DNA of 64,000 nt from Polytrichum commune. Lineage: Eukaryota > Streptophyta > Polytrichopsida > Polytrichales > Polytrichaceae. Position numbers and translations under genes: made by a program. Numbering within the stretch: position 1 is the stretch's first letter; each line of letters begins with the position of its first letter. Shown here one piece after another: positions 1 through 32,504 of this stretch. Under the pieces are notes generated by a model, which saw only the letters and a list, made by a program, of their open reading frames with translations, did no database searches and was not told the DNA's origin. Location: assembly GCA_950295325.1 (NCBI GenBank), contig OX485807.1:52296440-52360439 (forward strand), read 5' to 3'.

Positions 1-263
1 TTGTGAGTATATGGTTGTTGCGATCCGTGATGCAGTCTAGTGGTGGGGTCTCAAGGTTTTTACATATTTTTCTATTTATTCTTTTTGGGTTGGTTTCATA
101 CAATTTTCTGTATTTGGATATGGTTTTCTTAATGCATTATTTAGTGTATTTAGTGGTAGTTTTTCTGGCTTGTAAATTTGTTGTTTTGGCTATCATTGCT
201 ATTTCTTTAATCCATGTGTTAATTAGGGAATCGTCTTCAGGTGGGGGAGGGATGTGTATTCGG

Positions 264-2465
264 CTATATTGTCTTAGTGTGTCCATTATTGGGTGTATGC
301 GTCAGTTTGTTAATTTTTTTTGCAATGTATATAGTTTTCCTGATTAGGTGGTAGGTTGTTATGTGTTGTTTCCAAATTTTTTGGATTTTTTTGGGCAAGT
401 AGCCACCTTGTTGAGTGGCTCTGCTGGTTAAGGTGGGTATAGGTGTGGCACTACACGTTTCTTCAATGTTTTTAGAGATTGTTTGGGTGATATTGTTCAT
501 TTGTGTACATGTTTGTTGCCATTGGTCTGGTGTTAGGTGGTCTTTAGATAGTAGGATGGTTATTTCATTAAGTTGGATTGCGTTTTCTTTGAAAAACTTG
601 GTATTAAAACTATCTAGTTTATCTTGTGGAATGGGGTTTAGAATTCTGGTTGATGGAGGTATTGAGAGTTGTGTTACTCGGACTAATAGGGTGTTGGGTG
701 GTATTTCTAGGATAATTGGTAGGTGGTCTGAGTTTAGGTTTTGTTCTTGTAGTGTACTTGATGTATATGTTGTTGCATATTGTGTATTTGTGTAGAAACC
801 GTCAATAAGGCTAGTGTGCGTGTAATTATATCCTCCTTGTCTAGAGTATGTGGTGTTTGTGGGAATATAGGCGAGGGCTAGACTATCTATGTAGGTTCTC
901 CATTTAATGTCCTCTTCATGTGGGGGAGTGGTACCGTGTTCATTTTGTTTACCTATTAGTGCGATGTCTCTATTAAAGTCCCCACATAGTGTGTGTGTAT
1001 GGTTTGGGTGTGCATTTATCTGGGTATTTATAGTATGCATTATATCCGGAATTAATCTGATGTCTTCTTCGTACGAGGGCATGTACATATGAAGTAGTAA
1101 CCATGGTTTTAGTGGGTCGTTTTTTATATGGATAATTTGTAGATATGGCGATATGTTGGTAGGGGATGGTATTTTGGAAATGTTTCCTTGGAACGCATAT
1201 TTTTTGTGTATGAGTGTGAAGAGGCCCCCTCTAGTTGGAGTATACGGTATCCTTTGTTTGATGCATCTCGTTAGTGTATGTGTGTTGTTAAAGATTAGTT
1301 TATATTCTGGAAATAGGTTTTGTATGTATTTAGTTGATTTAGTTTTTTTTAATTTTGTTTCTTGTATGGTGATTATGGCTGGTTTGTCTTGTGAGTGGTA
1401 TATAATGTTTTGTATGTTAGGTAATGTTGTATTTAGTGATGAGGCATTCCATGTTATGATTTGGGTGTAGTGATTAGTATTTTGGCTATGGTGTGGCAGT
1501 GGGGGTTGGGGCAATGATGATGTAGGTAGAGGGTGTATGTATTCAGTTAGGGGTTCGAATATTTTCAGTGTTTCTTTAAGAAAGTTTATAGGTAGGTAGG
1601 GAAATTGATTACTTAGTGCTTCGAGGCTTGGTGGGTCTTGGTTTTGATGTATGTATTTGTAAATTTTGTCGTGTATGGTAGTTGGTGGATTGATTATATT
1701 TTGGTTATCTTGTAATATTTGGGTATGCGGGTGTATAGTACTAATGTGGTTTTCAGGGGGATTTCTTAGGGCGTTTAGTTTGGTTAGCAATAAAGAGGTC
1801 CAATCCGGGTTTGAATTTTGGATGAGGTATTCACATGTATCTATGTTTGGGCCTATGGTTGTGATTAGTGCAAATAAAATGTTTGGTGTTGGATAATGCC
1901 TATTTTGGTTAATATATGATGAAAGGTTAGGGAATGTTCTAGAGACATTGTTATGGTTAGAGTGGTTTGTGTTTAGTAGCGGTGACAAGGTTTGTGTGAT
2001 GTGTTGGTATTCAGGATGAAACTTTATTGTACTCGGTATAAAGTATGTTTTGGATCTAGATATGTGTGCCGGTGGATGTTCTTTTAGTACGTTAAGCATA
2101 GGTCCTGGGTTTAGTTCTATGTCTCCACATTTTAGTAGTATATTGTGTATAATATTATGTAGGTTTTTAAATTTGGTCTTACTTTTCAAATTTTTATATA
2201 TATATTTTTTCTTAGTTTTGGGGGTTATGATGTTTTTGTGCTTTTTGTTCCTTTGATGGTGTTTGGTATTTTTGAATGGTTGAGTGTTATGCTTTATGGG
2301 TTTCTTGGCTAGGTGCTCGGTATTTAGTTTGGGTGTATGAGGTTTGTTATGTTTTTTCTTATGAGGTATGGTTAGGTGTAGGTTGTTGGTGTAAGGGGTG
2401 ATTTTTTCTATGTTTTTGGTGGTATTTATAGGGGGTTTGAAACCTTTGAAATGTGTGAGGTTCAA
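264..2465 (-). pseudogene. LINE ORF2 N-terminal part: 2A-like motif plus APE endonuclease
   Basis: A 733-codon open frame. It starts with TTG here and stays open up to a TAA near 2550; the first in-frame ATG comes only at codon 123. Residues 1-112 are basic and low in complexity. Residues 114-122 read GDIELNPGP, the 2A ribosome-skipping consensus. Residues about 335-585 are the exonuclease-endonuclease-phosphatase fold of LINE ORF2: TWN at 338-340, QET at 368-370, GDFN at 495-498, LIDGFY at 553-558 and SDH at 579-581, so the catalytic N, E, D, N, D and H are all present. The frame ends at a TAG (264-266), but the same protein continues in the +1 frame as DTLRQYSRIHIPPPPEDD, so a frameshift lies near 290-310. 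The endonuclease nicks target DNA to prime reverse transcription. Family call is secure; clade is not determined. Confidence 0.85.
2100..2126 (-). other. 2A-like ribosome-skipping motif (GDIELNPGP)
   Basis: The codons for G-D-I-E-L-N-P-G-P fit the D-x-E-x-N-P-G-P core of 2A peptides. Upstream residues (NIIHNILLKC) are hydrophobic and helix-prone, as in working 2A sequences. In known cases the ribosome fails to form the final Gly-Pro bond and continues, yielding two products from one frame. A methionine follows the final proline directly. Confidence 0.8.
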
Positions 2466-2820
2466 GTGATGGTTAGTTGTTATTATTATTATTTTTTGTT
2501 CTATGTTGGTGTTTTGGGGGTTTCTTCTTATGTTATGTGGTTCTATTAGTTAATATGATTTTGTGTTAGTGTAGCCGGGTTTATATGAGGGTGAATTTAT
2601 TAGTTTTTAAATTTTATTGAATTTTATTATGTTATTTTTATATATTTTTTGTGCAAGGCCGGTAGGCCGAGCTCCAATTAGGGTTGTTTGATTGGAGTGT
2701 ATTGATCTTTATATACATGTGGTCTATTAGGATTATGGTTTTTACACATGTATGTTAGTTGTAGTTCGTTGGTATTAGGGGTGATTTTTTCTATTATGTT
2801 TTGGTGGGTTTCAATATATT
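2380..2820 (-). repeat. Internal duplication in the LINE ORF1-ORF2 spacer
   Basis: A block around 2380-2440 recurs diverged at about 2755-2820. The shared + strand core is GGGGTGATTTTTTCTAT, and the minus-strand translations both contain an IEKITP motif followed by TNNLHLT or TNELQLT. The copies are about 370 bp apart, so the 5' part of ORF2 (or the spacer) arose by tandem duplication. The right copy sits in a separate short frame (3028 to 2678). Confidence 0.65.
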
Positions 2821-3474
2821 TAGTATATGGATGTTGTGTAAGGATATGCCTTTCGGGAGGGTTTGTATGTTTATTCGGGGGAGTTTTTATTGTTTTGTTA
2901 TTACTTTTGATGTGTTTGGTAAGTGGTTTTGTTGTGATTTTAATTTGTATGTTGTTTATTAGAAACTTTATTGGAGTATTGATGAGTGTTGTATTTATTT
3001 TGTTATTGTTTCTATATATTTTGTGCATAGTTTTTAATATGTAGTATTTGTTTTGTTTTCTATTAGTGTTTGTATATAACTTTGCTATATTGATTCCGTA
3101 TACTTTGTAGGTTTTTTGAGAGTTTTGTCTTTTAAGGTATTTGGTTTGGTATGTGTATTTTGGGTTGATGTTAGTTTTAGTATTGAGTATCTTAGGGTTA
3201 GGTGTGTATTGTTTTCTAAAGGTATTGATTGTTTATTTGTTGGAGTTAAGTTTCTCTATTATTTTGGTGGTACTTATAAATACCTTATTTTGTTTTTGTT
3301 TTTGTGTAGTATTAAAAGATACTTTTAGAGTGTCATGCGGTGTGGCCGGGTCGTTGTGTATCCTTATTAGTTTGACATGTCCATTGTATTGTCATGGGGT
3401 GTACCTTCCGAGTCTTTGGCGACGCTTTCGATGTAGTCTACCGTCATGAGTAGTTATTTTTTGAAGATTTTGAG

Positions 3475-5159
3475 CTAGGCTGTGATAGATTTCATGGATT
3501 TATCGGTGTATGTCGTTGCTCGCCGGTATGCATTTTTTTCTTTCTCCGTCATTTCTTTTCGTAATTTTGTATTTTCCCCTTCCACAATCTTTTTTACCTC
3601 TTGTCTTATTAGCCCATTGGAGGGTGCATTTTCTAAGGCCTCAACCGTACTTGCTAGAGCTGTGTTTACATCTGAGAATCCGAGTTTGGTAAGTTATGTT
3701 TGTGACGGTGCGTTGATACCATCTAGACTTTTGGGATGTGGGGTGAATTCTATATATTTACCAAGGAGTTTTGCATTTTTCTTCACGAATTTCTTATATA
3801 CTGTTGCGTTTAGGCATTGGACATTGCAACTTCCCACATGTTTACCATTCTCAATTTTAAAGAAGACATTGATTACGTTTTTTCCTTCCACGTGTTTTTT
3901 AATTTTGTATTTAATCTCATCCGTGCTTTTCACTTTGTTTAGGTTTCTTATTATGAGGATAAATACATTTTTTATTGCCTTATCATCTTCCGTGAGTTTG
4001 TCTCCTGACGTGAATTTGGCATCCATAATTTCGTTGTGGAGTGAGATTTTATATGTACTAATCTTCTTAGCTTGTTCCGGAGATGTTGTTACTATCCATG
4101 CAAACTCATTTTATTTTTCTTTTAGATATTAGTCACCTTATAGTCATATTTACGGTTAAATCCTTCATTTACTACCTCTTCAAAGATGTTGAAGCATTCT
4201 TTACCAATTAGTGTGTCACTAGAGATTTTTACCAAGAGAGGATTATTCAACGCGAGCATATCGTAAGACTTGCAGACTTTTCCTCTCCAAGATTTTTCTT
4301 CATCCAAAGTGAGTATGAAGGCCTTAGTTCCTTGGAGAAGACTTTTTACATCAACTACCGGATTCTCAAGATGAAGTTTGATTGTACCACTCCATGTGGT
4401 GGATTTGTAGTAGCACATGATAGCTATGAGTTCACCTATCAAGCTTCCGGTTTTTATGTTCATTGTAGCTAATCTTTCCTTAACTTTGTCCATTATTACA
4501 TCTTTCTCTCATTTTATTTTTTTGAGTTCAAAGTGGATTGATATTTGGTAGTCAAAGGAAAATCCATTCTCATCCACCTCCACATCAAATGGGAGTTGGG
4601 TGAGATTGAAGTGTTGTCCCTCAATTCCATCCTTCCTTTTGGAGGGCCACTCCAATTGCGGGACATATGGAAATGAGGGTTGTGTATTCTGTATTTCATT
4701 TGCTTCATCAAAATCTATTCTTTTTTTCATTGGTTCTCTCGTTGTTTCCATATTTTCTTGGGGTAGCTCTTTTTGTTTGTTGATGAGGTTTAGGGCTTGG
4801 AACCCTAGCCACAAAGATAAACCATTTGGTCCTAGACTTTTCTTACTTTTAGTTTTTTTCTGGATGATGGTTACTATGGCCGAGGTGGTTCTTTTTTGTG
4901 AGGTGTTTATGATTTCGTTTTCTTCAACCACACATACATCCATATTCCTTGTGGAACTAGCTTCCGCCATGTATTTAGACATGTATGAAACATCATAGAA
5001 AAGGTTTTTATAGTGGATTTTTAAGGAGATTTTCTTAGTGTTTTTTGTAGTGTTAAGTAAACCGTTACTCCTTTGGGCCTCATAACCAGTATCTTCCCAC
5101 CACTTAATTGATGGGCCTATGCGATAGTTGGTGGTAGAGAAGGAATAGTTTGCATACAT
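3475..5159 (-). pseudogene. LINE ORF1 protein, broken
   Basis: Starts at ATG 5159. One frame runs to an in-frame TGA at 4509-4511, continues through MDKVKERLATM to TAA at 4122, then shifts +1 (NEFAWIVTTSPEQAKK onwards), crosses another in-frame TAA at 3694-3696 and ends at TAG 3475. The pieces join into one protein of about 550 residues. The central part (SCNVQCLNATVYKKF, GKYIEFTPHPKSLDG) looks like the RNA-binding central domain of LINE ORF1 proteins; the last 70 residues are charged and probably coiled coil. By analogy, the intact protein would bind element RNA as a chaperone. Three stops and one frameshift show it is dead. The assignment rests on position upstream of ORF2, common orientation and common base bias. 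Confidence 0.7.
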
Positions 5160-5334
5160 TCTAGAGAGATAAAAACCTACATAATGTATTTTGCTATGGT
5201 TGTTGTAATTATGTCTTAGATAATGTTTACTTTTGTTGAAAAAACAAAGGTAAACATTATTTGCATCATCCCATACTATTGGGTTTGATGTTACATTTTT
5301 ATGTTCATTTTAAAAATAAGATTGTACAAGACAT

Positions 5335-6060
5335 TCCCATAGGTTGTGAGATTTGACACTTTGAGAGTTCCTCCAATATGGTGTGGCTAGCAATAGCCAC
5401 AAAATGAGAATAAGGTTTTTTGCATATGCAAACTTCATATTTTTTCCTATCCTAGCAAATATCTAGCAATTCTATGTGCCTGATACTATGTTTTTGTGTG
5501 CCTAAGTGCAAGATTTTGAATGAATTAGACCTATATACTTGTTCAAACTTACCTTAGTTGATGTTTGGGTGCGTTTTCGTGTCGTAATATCCCTCCAAAG
5601 CTTTGGGTTGTCTCAAAACTCCAAAGGCTTGTAGCTCCGGCACTTCACAGCACGCGACTCCAGCAGCTTGCCGCGCACTACTCCAGCAACTCTCGGTAGT
5701 TGTAGTAGCCTTGCTATTGGGTAATGGTGTCAAAATATCACAGCAGTGTAACTAGTTAGACTTGCAAGCACTGAAGCAAGCCCTGACGCAGCTCCTACGT
5801 CTCCAGCAGGTTCCCCTTCTTATCCACGGTTTCACCAAAGGGTCGCCGCGATGTAACCAGTTGGGCTTGCAAACACTAGGATCACAACCTGATTACACCA
5901 GAAAGTATTCACGATCACTGGGCAACATCAGGTAGAATTTAAATCTCTCACGTCAAAGAATCAGACTGAGTTTTTCCAAGCTAGTCTGGTGGGTTTCGGC
6001 AATTCTATATGTCTCGGAATATTATTGTGGTGGGATGGTTCAGTGGATTTCTAAATTTTT
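5335..6060. other. Non-coding stretch, repeat fragments
   Basis: No coding signal. It contains a TCCAGCAG-rich low-complexity part (5640-5830) and, at about 5850-5905, a fragment of the dispersed repeat seen in full at 45365-45560 (shared core ACCAGTTGG followed by GCTTGCAAACACTAGGATC). Confidence 0.5.
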
Positions 6061-11890: not shown

Positions 11891-14313
11891 CTAGGAGTCT
11901 TCGACGGTGGTGTTCACTTGCTTCACAAATTGGGTGTCGTCGGCTTTGATGTCTTGCTCGGTTTCTTTCACTTCCTGCTGCAATTCCTGAGCCTTTTCAG
12001 CTTTCTTGACAGCCGATTCCTCTCGTCCCTTGATGGCGGTCTTGTGCTCCTCAACTTGGCCACCAACCTTCTGGAGTTGCTCTTCAAGTTCGGCATTGCG
12101 CTGACGTAATCCGTTCACTTCCTCCTCCAATTCCGCAATTCTCTTCTCGAGAGCCTTAATTTTGTCGTCGACACCATCAGCCTTCTTCACAGCGTCGTCA
12201 CGCTCAAGGCGCAAGCTCTTCAGCTTGCTGCTCAAATCAGCAAGACGGTCACCGTGCCGCTTCAGATCATCATCCTTTGCTGAAATCTCAGATTCCTTGT
12301 CTTGCAGCTCGGATGCAGCCCTCTCACCTGCAGATGCCTTGGCTTTAGTAGCATCCAATTCAGTTGCCAAGTTCTTCTCAGATTCTGCCTTTGCCTTGGC
12401 AGTGTCTGCCACCGAGACGAGATCCGACTCCATATCCCCAAGCTTCTCATCCTTATGTGCCGCTTCGGCAGCCTTGTCATTCGCTAGAGCTTCATTATCT
12501 TCGGCCTTCGAGAATGCTCCCATCATCTTGGTCTTCAATCCGCCAATGCTGTCTAACAATCCTCCCTTCTCACCTTCAAGATCCTTCGCCTTGCTCATAG
12601 CGGACTCCTTCTTTTGCTCCTCGGTCATCTTCTCAGACTCGAGACCCTTCTTGTCCGATTCGATGTCTGTTTTCTCTGCCTCGAGATCAGAAGTCTTTTC
12701 GCCTGCTTCCTGTTCAGTGGCATTGATAACCTTCTCTAGCTCAGCTATGCGCTCGGCCAGTACTCGTCCGTGAGCTCCATTGGCATCATATTTCTTTTTC
12801 AGCTCTGCGAGCTGAGATTCAAGAGAAGATGTTTTCTCCTTCTCATTTGCAAGTGCCTCGGCTAAGGTGTTCGATCGTGCAACAGACTTCTTGAGCTCTT
12901 CCTTGTACTCATCGGCGCTCGCTGCAGTTTTCTCCTTCGCATCCCCAACTTGTGAGAGTTCGGATTCCACGCCCTTCGTCTTAGATTCTAACTCGTTAGT
13001 TCGAGAGTCGAGTTCAGAGGCCTTCTCCTCAGCTGGGATTGCGCGTGACTTGAAGTGATTAACCTGCACATCAAAAATCAACGAGGGTCATTGATGTTTC
13101 CAGGAATTTATCTGCTGCCACGATGGTTATATCATATCCTAATGAACTATTGTAAAAGACAAAGCTCAAGGAATTACGCGCACGAAGTAAATCGAGGCAA
13201 CTGTAGCTCGAAATGTCAGGAAATTCAGCAAATGTAGGGATTAAACTCGACATAATGCATCGTGATATACAAAGCACTACGGAAGGAGCTCCATTTGCAA
13301 TCTGAAGCCTCCAATCAATAGTAGGACGTCTCTTCGAACATATCATACCAAGGAACCCGTTTGAAATGAGTTACGACACACAATTATACTGCCGGGTGGA
13401 TTAAAAAGAAAGATAGATGTCCAAGCTTACCTTCTCAGTTAAATCGGCGACCTGAGCTTCCTTCTTCTCAAGCTCGGCCTGCTTTTCAGCCAACGCCTGC
13501 TTCATGTCTTCCATCTTCATCTCCCTGTCTTGAAGGCCAGTATGCACACCCTCCAAATCCTTTTCGAATTTTACGTTTGTCTGCTGCACTTGGCCAAGCT
13601 TAGATTGGTGCTCTTTCATCTTCTTTTCAGCTTCTGCGAATTTCTCATCGGCTTCCTTGAGCTGAAGCTCTAGATCTGCAGCCTTGGCGCCGGCAGCTTG
13701 AACCTCTCCCTCAAGATCCTTCACGCGAGCTTCCAATTCGGAAATCTTAGCTTTAGCGTCACGTGCCACCTTGTTAGACTTATCGGTCTCACCATTGGCC
13801 ATGTGAAGCGCTTCCTCGCAGTCCTTGAGTGACTTCTTCAGCTTCTCATTCTCAGTCTCTAAGAACTTGATTTTCTGCACAATATCATAAACGGTTTTCA
13901 GGATGCTAATCATTAATACAGGAACCGGCAACCTGTACACAAGGCATGCATAATCGATTTACACTTCTTCCCGCACTATACACCAACCTAATCCAGATCT
14001 TCTGTGAAGATATCCCGGGGAAGCAATCACCTACTAATAACCAGAGGATATGGGAGAAAATACCAATTCCACTTATAATACGAACCGTATGGAAATGAGA
14101 TCGATCTGATAAGGAGATCCTACATTCCAAGACAATCATCCATACCTCTTCGGCCTTCTTTCCGACATCCGATGGCACGACAACTTGCGCAGAGACGACG
14201 GAAGCGTTATCCGATCCTCCCATCTTATCCTGCGTCTCCTTCGCCTGAGCCTCCAACTTCTGCTTCGCGAAGTTCACCGCGTCGGTGTTCTGCTGGGACT
14301 CCATAGACGCCAT
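11891..14313 (-). CDS. Tropomyosin-like long coiled-coil protein A (594 aa, 3 exons)
   Basis: Exons on the minus strand: 14313-14146, 13874-13431 and 13063-11891, all phase 0 with GT-AG borders (GAG|GTATG, AAG|GTAAGC; acceptors TGCAG). Start ATG gives MASMESQQNTDAVNFAKQ. Residues 1-56 carry the conserved SAQVVVPSDVGKKAEE. From about residue 57 to 560 almost everything is heptad-type coiled coil rich in E, K, A, L and D (KIKFLETENEKLKK to EELEEQLQK-type repeats). One break is the glycine-rich, hydrophobic segment GGLLDSIGGLKTKMMGAFSK within exon 3. No signal peptide, membrane helix or catalytic motif is visible. The resemblance to tropomyosin and myosin rods is compositional; the family is not one I can name. 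A scaffold or membrane-tether role is inference. Its paralogue is at 30132-32504. Confidence 0.9.
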
Positions 14314-30131: not shown

Positions 30132-32504
30132 CTAAGATTCGTTCACGTCACTAACAGTGACATTCACATCTTTCACAAACTCTTTGTCTTCGACTTTCAT
30201 GTCCATCTCGGATTCCTTCACTTCCTGCTGTAATTTCTGCGCCTGCTCATTCTTCTTGATAGCTTCCTCCTCCCGGCCCCTGATAGCTCTCTTATGTTCC
30301 TCAACCTTCACACCAACCTTCCGGAGCTGATCCTCCAGATCCGAGTTGCGCTCGCGCAAATCGTTCACTTCCTCTTCGAGCTCAGCAATTCTGCTCTCCA
30401 AAGCTTTGATCTTGTCGTCAACGCCATCAGCCTTCGCAACAGCTTCGTCACGCTCAAGACGTAAATTCTTCAGCTTGCTGCTCAAGTCAGCAAGACGATC
30501 ACCGTGCTGCTTCAAATCGTCATCCTTTGCGGAAAGCTCAGACTTCTTCTCCTCCAACTCAGCGGCCGCCCTATCACCAGCAGCTGCCTTGGCTTTCGTG
30601 GCATCCAATTCCTTTGACAAATTCTTCTCAGACTCTGCTTTCGCCCTCGCATTCTCAGCCTCCGATTCAAGACTTGCTTGCAAATTGTCAATCTCCCCGC
30701 CCTTCCTAGCTGCTTCCGCCTCCTTCTCCTTTGCCAACGCTTCTTTCTCATCTGCCTTGGAGAAAGCCCCCATCATCTTGCTCTTTAATCCACCAATGCT
30801 GTCCAACAAGCCTCCCTTCTCGCTCTCAAGCTCCTCAGCCCGCCTCTTTGCGGCCTCCTTCTCTTCCTCTTCGGACATCTTTTCAGACTCCAGGCCTTTC
30901 TTGTCAGACAATATGTCTCTCTTCTGTGCCTCAAGAGTAGAAGTCCTCTCGCTAGCTTCTGCCTCTGTGTTACTGATAGCTTTCTCAAGCTCAGCAATAC
31001 GCTCGGCCAACACACGGGCATGGCCTGCATTTGCATCCGACTTCTTCTTCAAATCTTCCAATTCTGATTGAAGTGCAGCAGATTTTCTCTTCTCATTTGT
31101 TAGCGCATCGGCAAGCTTGTTAGACCGCTCCACAGAGCCCTGAAGCTCCTCCTTGTACTCCGCAATGCTGGCCTCGGCCTTATCCTTCGTACTTCCAACC
31201 TGCGAGAGCTTCGACTGTACACTTGTAACCGTGGACTCCAATTCACCAGTTCGAGAATCAAGCTCTGACACCCTCTGCTCAGCTGGAATTGCGCGAGACT
31301 TGAAGTGCTCAACCTGCATTTGTATTGACGGAACACGTCAAAAGTTATCCTTGGTTGCAACGTGTTATATCTTCTTCCAATGCTGAAACTTGTAAGTAGC
31401 ATAAAATATACAAGGAAAACACAGGTACAATAGTCGCTGCCATGTCTTACCTTATCAGAGAGGTCACCGATTGTAGACTCTTTCTCTCCAAGCAGAGCAT
31501 CCTTGTCTGTCAACTTACTTCTCAAATCCCCGACCTTCATGTCCCTGTCTTGTAAGCCGGCCTGCACACCTTCCAAATCCTTCTCGTACTTCACATTTGT
31601 CTCCTGCACCTGGCCAACCTTAGACTTGTACTGCTTCAACTCCATCTCAACCTCCGCATACTTCTCATCGGCCTTCTTGAGCTTCATTTCTAGCTCTGCG
31701 GCCTTGGCGCCAGCAGCTTGGACCTCTCCTTCAAGGTCCTGGACACGCGCTTCCAGCTCGGCAACCTTGGCTTTGGCATCACGAGCAACTCTGTTCGACT
31801 TATCGGTCTCGTTGTTGGCCATTGACAGCGCTTCCTCACAATCTTTGAGTGTCCTTTGCAACTTGTCAACCTCAGCTTCTAGGTATGCAATTCTCTGCAC
31901 ATTGTAAAAAAAATCTTCTCAGAATTCCACTTCTTCAAACACTTTATTCAGCAAAGAAACAGCCACCTAGCATTACATTCCACGTTGAATGATACATACG
32001 CCTTTTCCAATGCACTCACTCTAAAGCACAAAGCCAAAGTGCAAACCTGCTGTGTGTTCGTTTCAGCAGAAGAAAGCGTGTTCAGGCAATTTCTCTACTC
32101 AAACAGTTCATTCAAAATCATCACAATCAATCTACTGCTTCCGGAATTCAATACTATTATGGACTCCACGCAAGATTAAGCCATCACCAATGCGATGAGC
32201 CAAGTAGACCAGGTTATTCTCAAATTTCTCCAGAGTCAGATGAAGCTTGCGTGTCATAGGTTTGGCCAGCGTCAGAGGTCCAATAGTTTGAAAGCAAAGA
32301 ATCATGCATCATCTGCAGCTGCTGAAAATTTCATACCTCCTCAGATTTCTTCCCGATGTCAGATGGCACCACCACCTGCGCAGTGACGACGGAGCTCTTC
32401 TCCGCCCCGCCCGTCCTATCCTGCATCTCCTTCGCTTGTGCTTCCAGAGTCTGCTTGGCGAAGTTGACCGCATCGGCATTCTGCTGCGACTCCATTGTTG
32501 ACAT
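30132..32504 (-). CDS. Tropomyosin-like long coiled-coil protein B (597 aa, 3 exons)
   Basis: Exons on the minus strand: 32504-32337, 31894-31451 and 31313-30132, all phase 0, GT-AG (GAG|GTATG, AAG|GTAAGA; acceptors GCAG). Exons 1 and 2 have exactly the lengths of those in gene A (168 and 444 bp); exon 3 is 9 bp longer. Exon 1 (MSTMESQQNADAVNFAKQ) is identical to gene A at 42 of 56 residues. The rod is again nearly continuous coiled coil, with the same internal break GGLLDSIGGLKSKMMGAFSK and the same C-terminal pattern (DKIKALESRIAELEEEVNDL). The frame stays open into intron 2 beyond 31451, but that extension has no counterpart in gene A and is intron. It is a cytosolic or peripheral scaffold by appearance only; partner and role are unknown. 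Confidence 0.9.

Follow-up and report, generated by a model that had tools for sequence, protein, structure and literature searches.

On the minus strand at one end of the window, the 64,000-nucleotide stretch of Polytrichum commune DNA that was analyzed here, lies a decayed non-LTR retrotransposon (Table 1). Within its ORF2, the nine residues GDIELNPGP (GGA GAC ATA GAA CTA AAC CCA GGA CCT) lie in a frame of 761 codons from stop to stop (264 to 2549), with their last residue at position 150, and NPGP occurs only this once across the six frames of the window. A first-pass annotation of this DNA had proposed a 2A ribosome-skipping motif here, 215 residues before the APE endonuclease and with the first in-frame methionine immediately after the final proline. 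The motif reads as claimed, the APE starts about 213 residues after it, and in the window copy the methionine is where it was said to be. Upstream of the 2A, this copy has no in-frame AUG before the first stop is reached, and the same holds for some other copies.

The ORF2 frame of the window copy breaks at 264 to 300, and its RT, PCIF1-like domain, RNase H, and restriction-like endonuclease (RLE) regions lie to the left of the window (G000:C5, about 52291500 to 52296440), in several broken frames. ORF1 is interrupted by a stop around codon 43 (near 5310) and by frame breaks, and in the leader the 2A frame stays open no farther than 2549, with a second open piece at 2678 to 3232. A Pfam search with the window ORF by itself gave zero matches, and the domains were identified via intact relatives. 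At its start, ORF1 encodes a hydrophobic, signal-peptide-like stretch, MKFAYAKNLILILWLLLATPYW, both in the window copy (5438 to 5373, minus strand) and in a relative, L033. In a look at composition (window 1 to 3400 and the leaders of L001 to L064), G was very scarce on the sense strand of ORF2 and the leader, the 1.5 kb that precede the 2A being about 9% G and 46% A; GC skew is 0.45 across window 1 to 4000, and ORF1 is seemingly less biased. Elsewhere in the window, two long minus-strand frames (11891 to 13087 and 30132 to 31337) resemble each other and have only coiled-coil matches (Tropomyosin-like, below the cutoff); they are probably parts of another repeated element.

Table 1. Parts of the retrotransposon in the window (window positions, 5′ to 3′ on the forward strand)
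Feature	Position	Strand	Basis
ORF1 of the same element	3370..5438	-	tblastn with ORF1 of L033 and L031 (36 to 51% identity over 5459 to 3370)
Leader/spacer, ORF1 stop to 2A	2127..3369	-	Stops depleted only in the 2A frame; dN/dS near 1
Predicted functional 2A region with upstream hydrophobic stretch, NLHNIIHNILLKCGDIELNPGP	2100..2159	-	dN/dS 0.2 to 0.36 at codons -20 to -9; L-rich, with (C/S)G before D
2A/StopGo core, GDIELNPGP	2100..2126	-	Direct reading; kept in relatives; dN/dS about 0.05 across copies
ORF2 past the 2A: linker of about 213 residues, APE (about 1463 to 700), start of the RT-leading region	264..2099	-	Homology to intact ORF2 of L031 and L032; PF03372 in P0002
ORF2 continuation in another frame	1..301	-	tblastn with intact ORF2; frames of L067

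Intact relatives consist of an ORF1 and a long ORF2. In the ORF2 product of L031 (P0002), the APE domain (PF03372; E = 1.3e-5; residues 801 to 965) lies N-terminal to the RT (RVT_1, PF00078; E = 3.6e-27; residues 1418 to 1681), and Pfam RNase H (PF00075) is found both there (E = 1.4e-14) and in the ORF2 product of L032 (P0003; E = 3.5e-12), which likewise has APE and RT matches. Among solved structures, the RT is closest to R2 proteins (E = 7.5e-33). Both products match PCIF1_WW above the Pfam cutoff, in the interval from RT to RNase H (residues 2171 to 2299 of P0002 and 2169 to 2264 of P0003). PCIF1_WW is a cap m6A methyltransferase family with a catalytic NPPF; the elements read HPPN or HPHN where NPPF would be expected, and it is therefore doubtful that the PCIF1-like domain has methyltransferase activity.

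The last 220 residues of ORF2 contain a CCHC motif followed by R(F)(K/R)PDIL..EFTY..KY. A sequence-profile search of the RLE region against the PDB gave no match, and the signal came from structure comparison alone; for a low-confidence model (P0007; pLDDT 52.5), the five best matches were the C-terminal endonuclease of R2 proteins (Z of 5.6 to 6.7), and the next were bunyavirus PD-(D/E)XK endonucleases. From this comparison, we would assign the ORF2 C terminus, with moderate confidence, to the R2-type PD-(D/E)XK RLEs. Past the ORF2 stop, L065 and L066 have a similar stem-like stretch (CGAAAGGGGAGAGTAGT ... GACCGGAGT), and their 3′ ends then close with a short run of (TATC)n.

The motif of the window copy recurs throughout the genome. 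When the 407.8-Mb assembly (64 contigs) was scanned, the DNA pattern for GDIExNPGP was found at 255 sites and the wider D(I/V)ExNPGP pattern at 268, compared to 0 for the reversed control of each; with 255 sites against none, the motif does not reflect chance. A homology search with the window protein gave 61 places, of which 30 copies, found by homology and not by the motif, were taken for comparison. A 2A site was readable in 28 of these (at L023 it was not alignable), and when these relatives were examined for absence of the motif, 24 of the 28 proved to carry an intact GDIExNPGP. The sites that are not intact read GDIK (E to K; L010 and L030), E to K plus NLGP (L007), or NPRP (L024), and L004 has a nonsense change within the motif. 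GDIExNPGP persists in relatives whose protein is only about 51% identical to that of the window copy; the 2A of L032 and L034 reads GDIK rather than GDIE. A scan of IMG/VR for relatives found none. In one copy, L062, a second 2A-like string, GDNETNPGPIPNNL, follows LLLLHN upstream of the main 2A (amino acid 355, plus strand, frame 2) and is probably a fragment of another copy. As to the host genome, the WRKY domain, an indicator of a plant, gave 34 matches at the level of exons, which may represent about 20 genes, and dynein heavy chain gave 13 matches; dynein heavy chains are kept by plants with swimming sperm and are not known from flowering plants. The two together point to a seed-free land plant, such as a bryophyte.

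The first-pass annotation had called for a check of purifying selection on the motif across copies, and among the copies in this genome selection is strongest exactly there. In pairwise codon comparisons anchored at the motif, the nine codons of the 2A core, with dN/dS of about 0.05 to 0.07, were the most constrained stretch tested. For the copies found without use of the motif, core changes amounted to 28 at 87 synonymous sites and 5 at 261 nonsynonymous sites (dN/dS 0.046), counts for which Fisher p-values are not independent, since the copies share ancestry. Going upstream, dN/dS rises from the value given in Table 1 for codons -20 to -9 to about 0.5 to 0.7 at codons -60 to -20 and to about 0.85 to 1.0 beyond 60 codons, where it equals that of the wrong frames; downstream of the 2A, it is about 0.2. 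In the two wrong-frame controls, upstream values were about 0.8 to 1.0 and core values exceeded 1; they thus lack the low core value, which assigns the selection signal to the 2A frame. Given that the same pairs are constrained downstream and not in the leader, the difference does not stem from postinsertion decay. Together, the intact copies and the peak of selection at the motif bear out the proposal that a plant non-LTR element carries a 2A-type motif ahead of its APE.

GDIELNPGP conforms to D(V/I)ExNPGP, the defining core of 2A/StopGo peptides, and what precedes the core is conserved as well. Of 55 copies, all have L or I at position -12, 48 have L at -11, 54 have C, S, or G at -9, and 55 have G at -8; D-I-E/K-x-N-P-G-P comes next. 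This is a permissive upstream context for StopGo, L-rich and then C/S-G before the D. Li et al. 2026 describe an L-rich StopGo class that ends in (A/S/C)G before D and has a highly active representative (PMC12846837). That the 2A site lies inside a translated frame is indicated indirectly, by the depletion of stops described below and by dN/dS below 0.4 from about codon -20. It is very probable, judging from these patterns, that the motif is a 2A (StopGo) peptide that opens the enzyme part of ORF2, the leader being released by predicted skipping. We imagine that ribosomes would enter ORF2 upstream of the 2A, near the end of ORF1, and translate a long leader of indifferent amino acid content, which would be released at NPG/P without a stop codon, both the skipping and its efficiency being predicted. 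Translation would then resume with Pro-Met-Pro-Asn as the N terminus of an APE-RT-RNase H-RLE protein.

The leader itself is open but unconstrained. Over codons -60 to -9 of the homology-found copies, stops account for 9 of 1,428 codons in the 2A frame versus 208 of 2,856 in the other frames, about a tenfold depletion, and the depletion reaches to about codon -200 (59 of 2,240 versus 292 of 4,480). Beyond that it fades, as would be expected from frame-shifting indels in old copies. Over the whole leader, which runs for 547, 549, and 268 codons between ORF1 stop and 2A in L031, L032, and L033, these copies have 0 stops in the 2A frame and 19 to 39 in each other frame; L031 to L034 were picked for their long frames, which biases these zeros, and the pooled counts from the homology-found copies were not so picked. 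Indel lengths as a test of frame, divisible by three in 38% of cases in the spacer versus 17 to 22% downstream, are no more than suggestive, being blurred by postinsertion decay. The leader thus appears to be translated though its amino acids are unconstrained, as expected if ribosomes traverse it and it is then shed at a 2A. The idea of a conserved leader protein was considered and rejected, since dN/dS beyond codon -60 is the same as in wrong frames. The basic N-terminal piece envisaged by the first-pass annotation is retained here in that the frame is kept free of stops, and not as a conserved protein, the part more than 60 codons upstream evolving like noncoding DNA; the piece that the 2A would release is probably disposable. 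An open but unconstrained leader would be a new kind of evolutionary evidence for an active 2A, and one that can be searched for in other elements.

In L032 and L034, an AUG in the 2A frame overlaps the ORF1 stop (ATGACTAG), an arrangement that suggests termination-reinitiation as a way for ribosomes to reach the leader. No common start site or frame relation was established at the ORF1/ORF2 junction, other copies differing in frame. That the copies have no consistently placed upstream start codon speaks against the 2A reading, as does GDIK in the two copies with the overlapping AUG. The ORF1 tails are alike (NMDxxxN, then TAA or TAG) in L032/L034, L003, L010, L027, L029, L033, and L047.

An alternative is that ORF2 starts at the AUG right after NPGP, with the 2A-like string upstream of it untranslated. 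An ATG does directly follow NPGP at 207 of the 255 sites (81%), and the window copy offers no in-frame AUG farther upstream. However, the codons preceding the AUG are under selection at the protein level, most strongly in the core, avoidance of stops extends well over 100 codons upstream and is confined to the 2A frame, and the ATG is absent at 48 of the 255 sites, with L039 and L061 having Ser and Leu in its place and the 2A kept. We regard this alternative as improbable. The first-pass annotation had remarked that internal initiation at this methionine, like skipping, would yield a similar N terminus; the open leader, the constrained residues before the Met, and the two copies lacking it disfavor this, making initiation there unlikely as the main route, although the frequency of the Met leaves room for some.

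With the 2A reading, the leader and motif would be translated and then separated. They could instead be translated and stay fused, the motif being a conserved protein segment with no skipping; resemblance to a recoding motif is no proof of activity, and the data here are sequence data. Against this, all of the fixed positions are those that StopGo requires (D-x-E-x-N-P-G-P and an L-rich stretch with G as its last residue), and the single variable position, x, is the one that varies in StopGo too. The attached leader, moreover, is unconstrained, as one would hardly expect of a permanent domain. A fused segment therefore strikes us as quite improbable. We give the least credence to a 2A that acts as a partial switch, sending unskipped and skipped products to different places in the cell as do N-terminal 2A signal sequences of sea urchins, for which dual targeting has been described (PMC4981915); hydrophobic residues do precede the core, but in intact copies they come after a long leader, which lacks the conservation expected of a signal.

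The earlier finding stands, then, and is stronger than first stated; the 2A of this plant retrotransposon is family-wide and under selection, with skipping as its predicted activity. We lean somewhat toward a broader proposal as well, in which StopGo is in natural use at over 250 sites of a land-plant nuclear genome, all in a so far undescribed lineage of dual-endonuclease retrotransposons whose 2A would free the enzyme from an obligatorily translated, sequence-indifferent leader. If so, ORF2 would be coupled to upstream translation without the cost of a fused junk domain. StopGo is an everyday biotechnology tool in plants; a 2A kept through deep divergence would mean that natural StopGo is something plant ribosomes have encountered for a long time, and this element family would supply plant-adapted 2A sequences. 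2A sequences are known to work in plant cells (PMC4981915), and StopGo has been reported as functional in plants, with no natural use found among plant viruses and cellular use called rare (PMC12846837). Searches of the literature, limited in coverage, turned up no plant retrotransposon reported to carry a 2A. A catalogue of eukaryotic 2As is said to have been assembled by Rao in 2025.

2A ribosome-skipping peptides occur in animal viruses and in some animal and trypanosome non-LTR elements. The L1Tc 2A is placed upstream of the APE. 2A-like sequences in APE-type non-LTR retrotransposons, namely L1Tc/ingi of trypanosomes and several animal LINEs, were reportedly described by Odon et al. in 2013. 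The moss elements share with these the D(V/I)ExNPGP core and its position ahead of an encoded APE; they differ in their land-plant host, in the putative additional R2-type endonuclease, and in having the 2A end a long, unconstrained, stop-free leader. With viral StopGo motifs 2 and 6, which are LLLLSG-like, they share an L-rich stretch running to (A/S/C)G, with the D at position 12, whereas here the setting is a chromosomal retrotransposon in a plant (PMC12846837).

Like the L1 and RTE LINEs of plants, this is a non-LTR element with APE and RT, and some of those also have RNase H; unlike them, it has an R2-like RT, a 2A, and a putative second, RLE-type endonuclease. Assignment to L1 or RTE was rejected on the last count, given that those have a single, APE-type endonuclease and that the C terminus here is modeled as an R2-type one. 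The label of plant LINE used in the first-pass annotation is thus right for a plant non-LTR element with an APE and does not extend to an ordinary plant LINE. The Chlamydomonas Dualen element has a cysteine protease domain; Pfam gave no cysteine protease match in ORF2, although a divergent domain could be missed. The Dualen/RandI group of green algae is defined by the presence of both endonucleases, APE and PD-(D/E)XK (PMC3636483, PMC4640811). In a review of land plants, L1 and RTE are the only LINEs listed (PMC9033089). The present family would extend dual-endonuclease elements to land plants. By its domain order, and not by placement in a clade on an RT tree, our element is Dualen/RandI-like, with the order APE-RT-RNase H-RLE and apparently both endonucleases in one element; it differs from that group in its land-plant host, its 2A, and its PCIF1-like domain.
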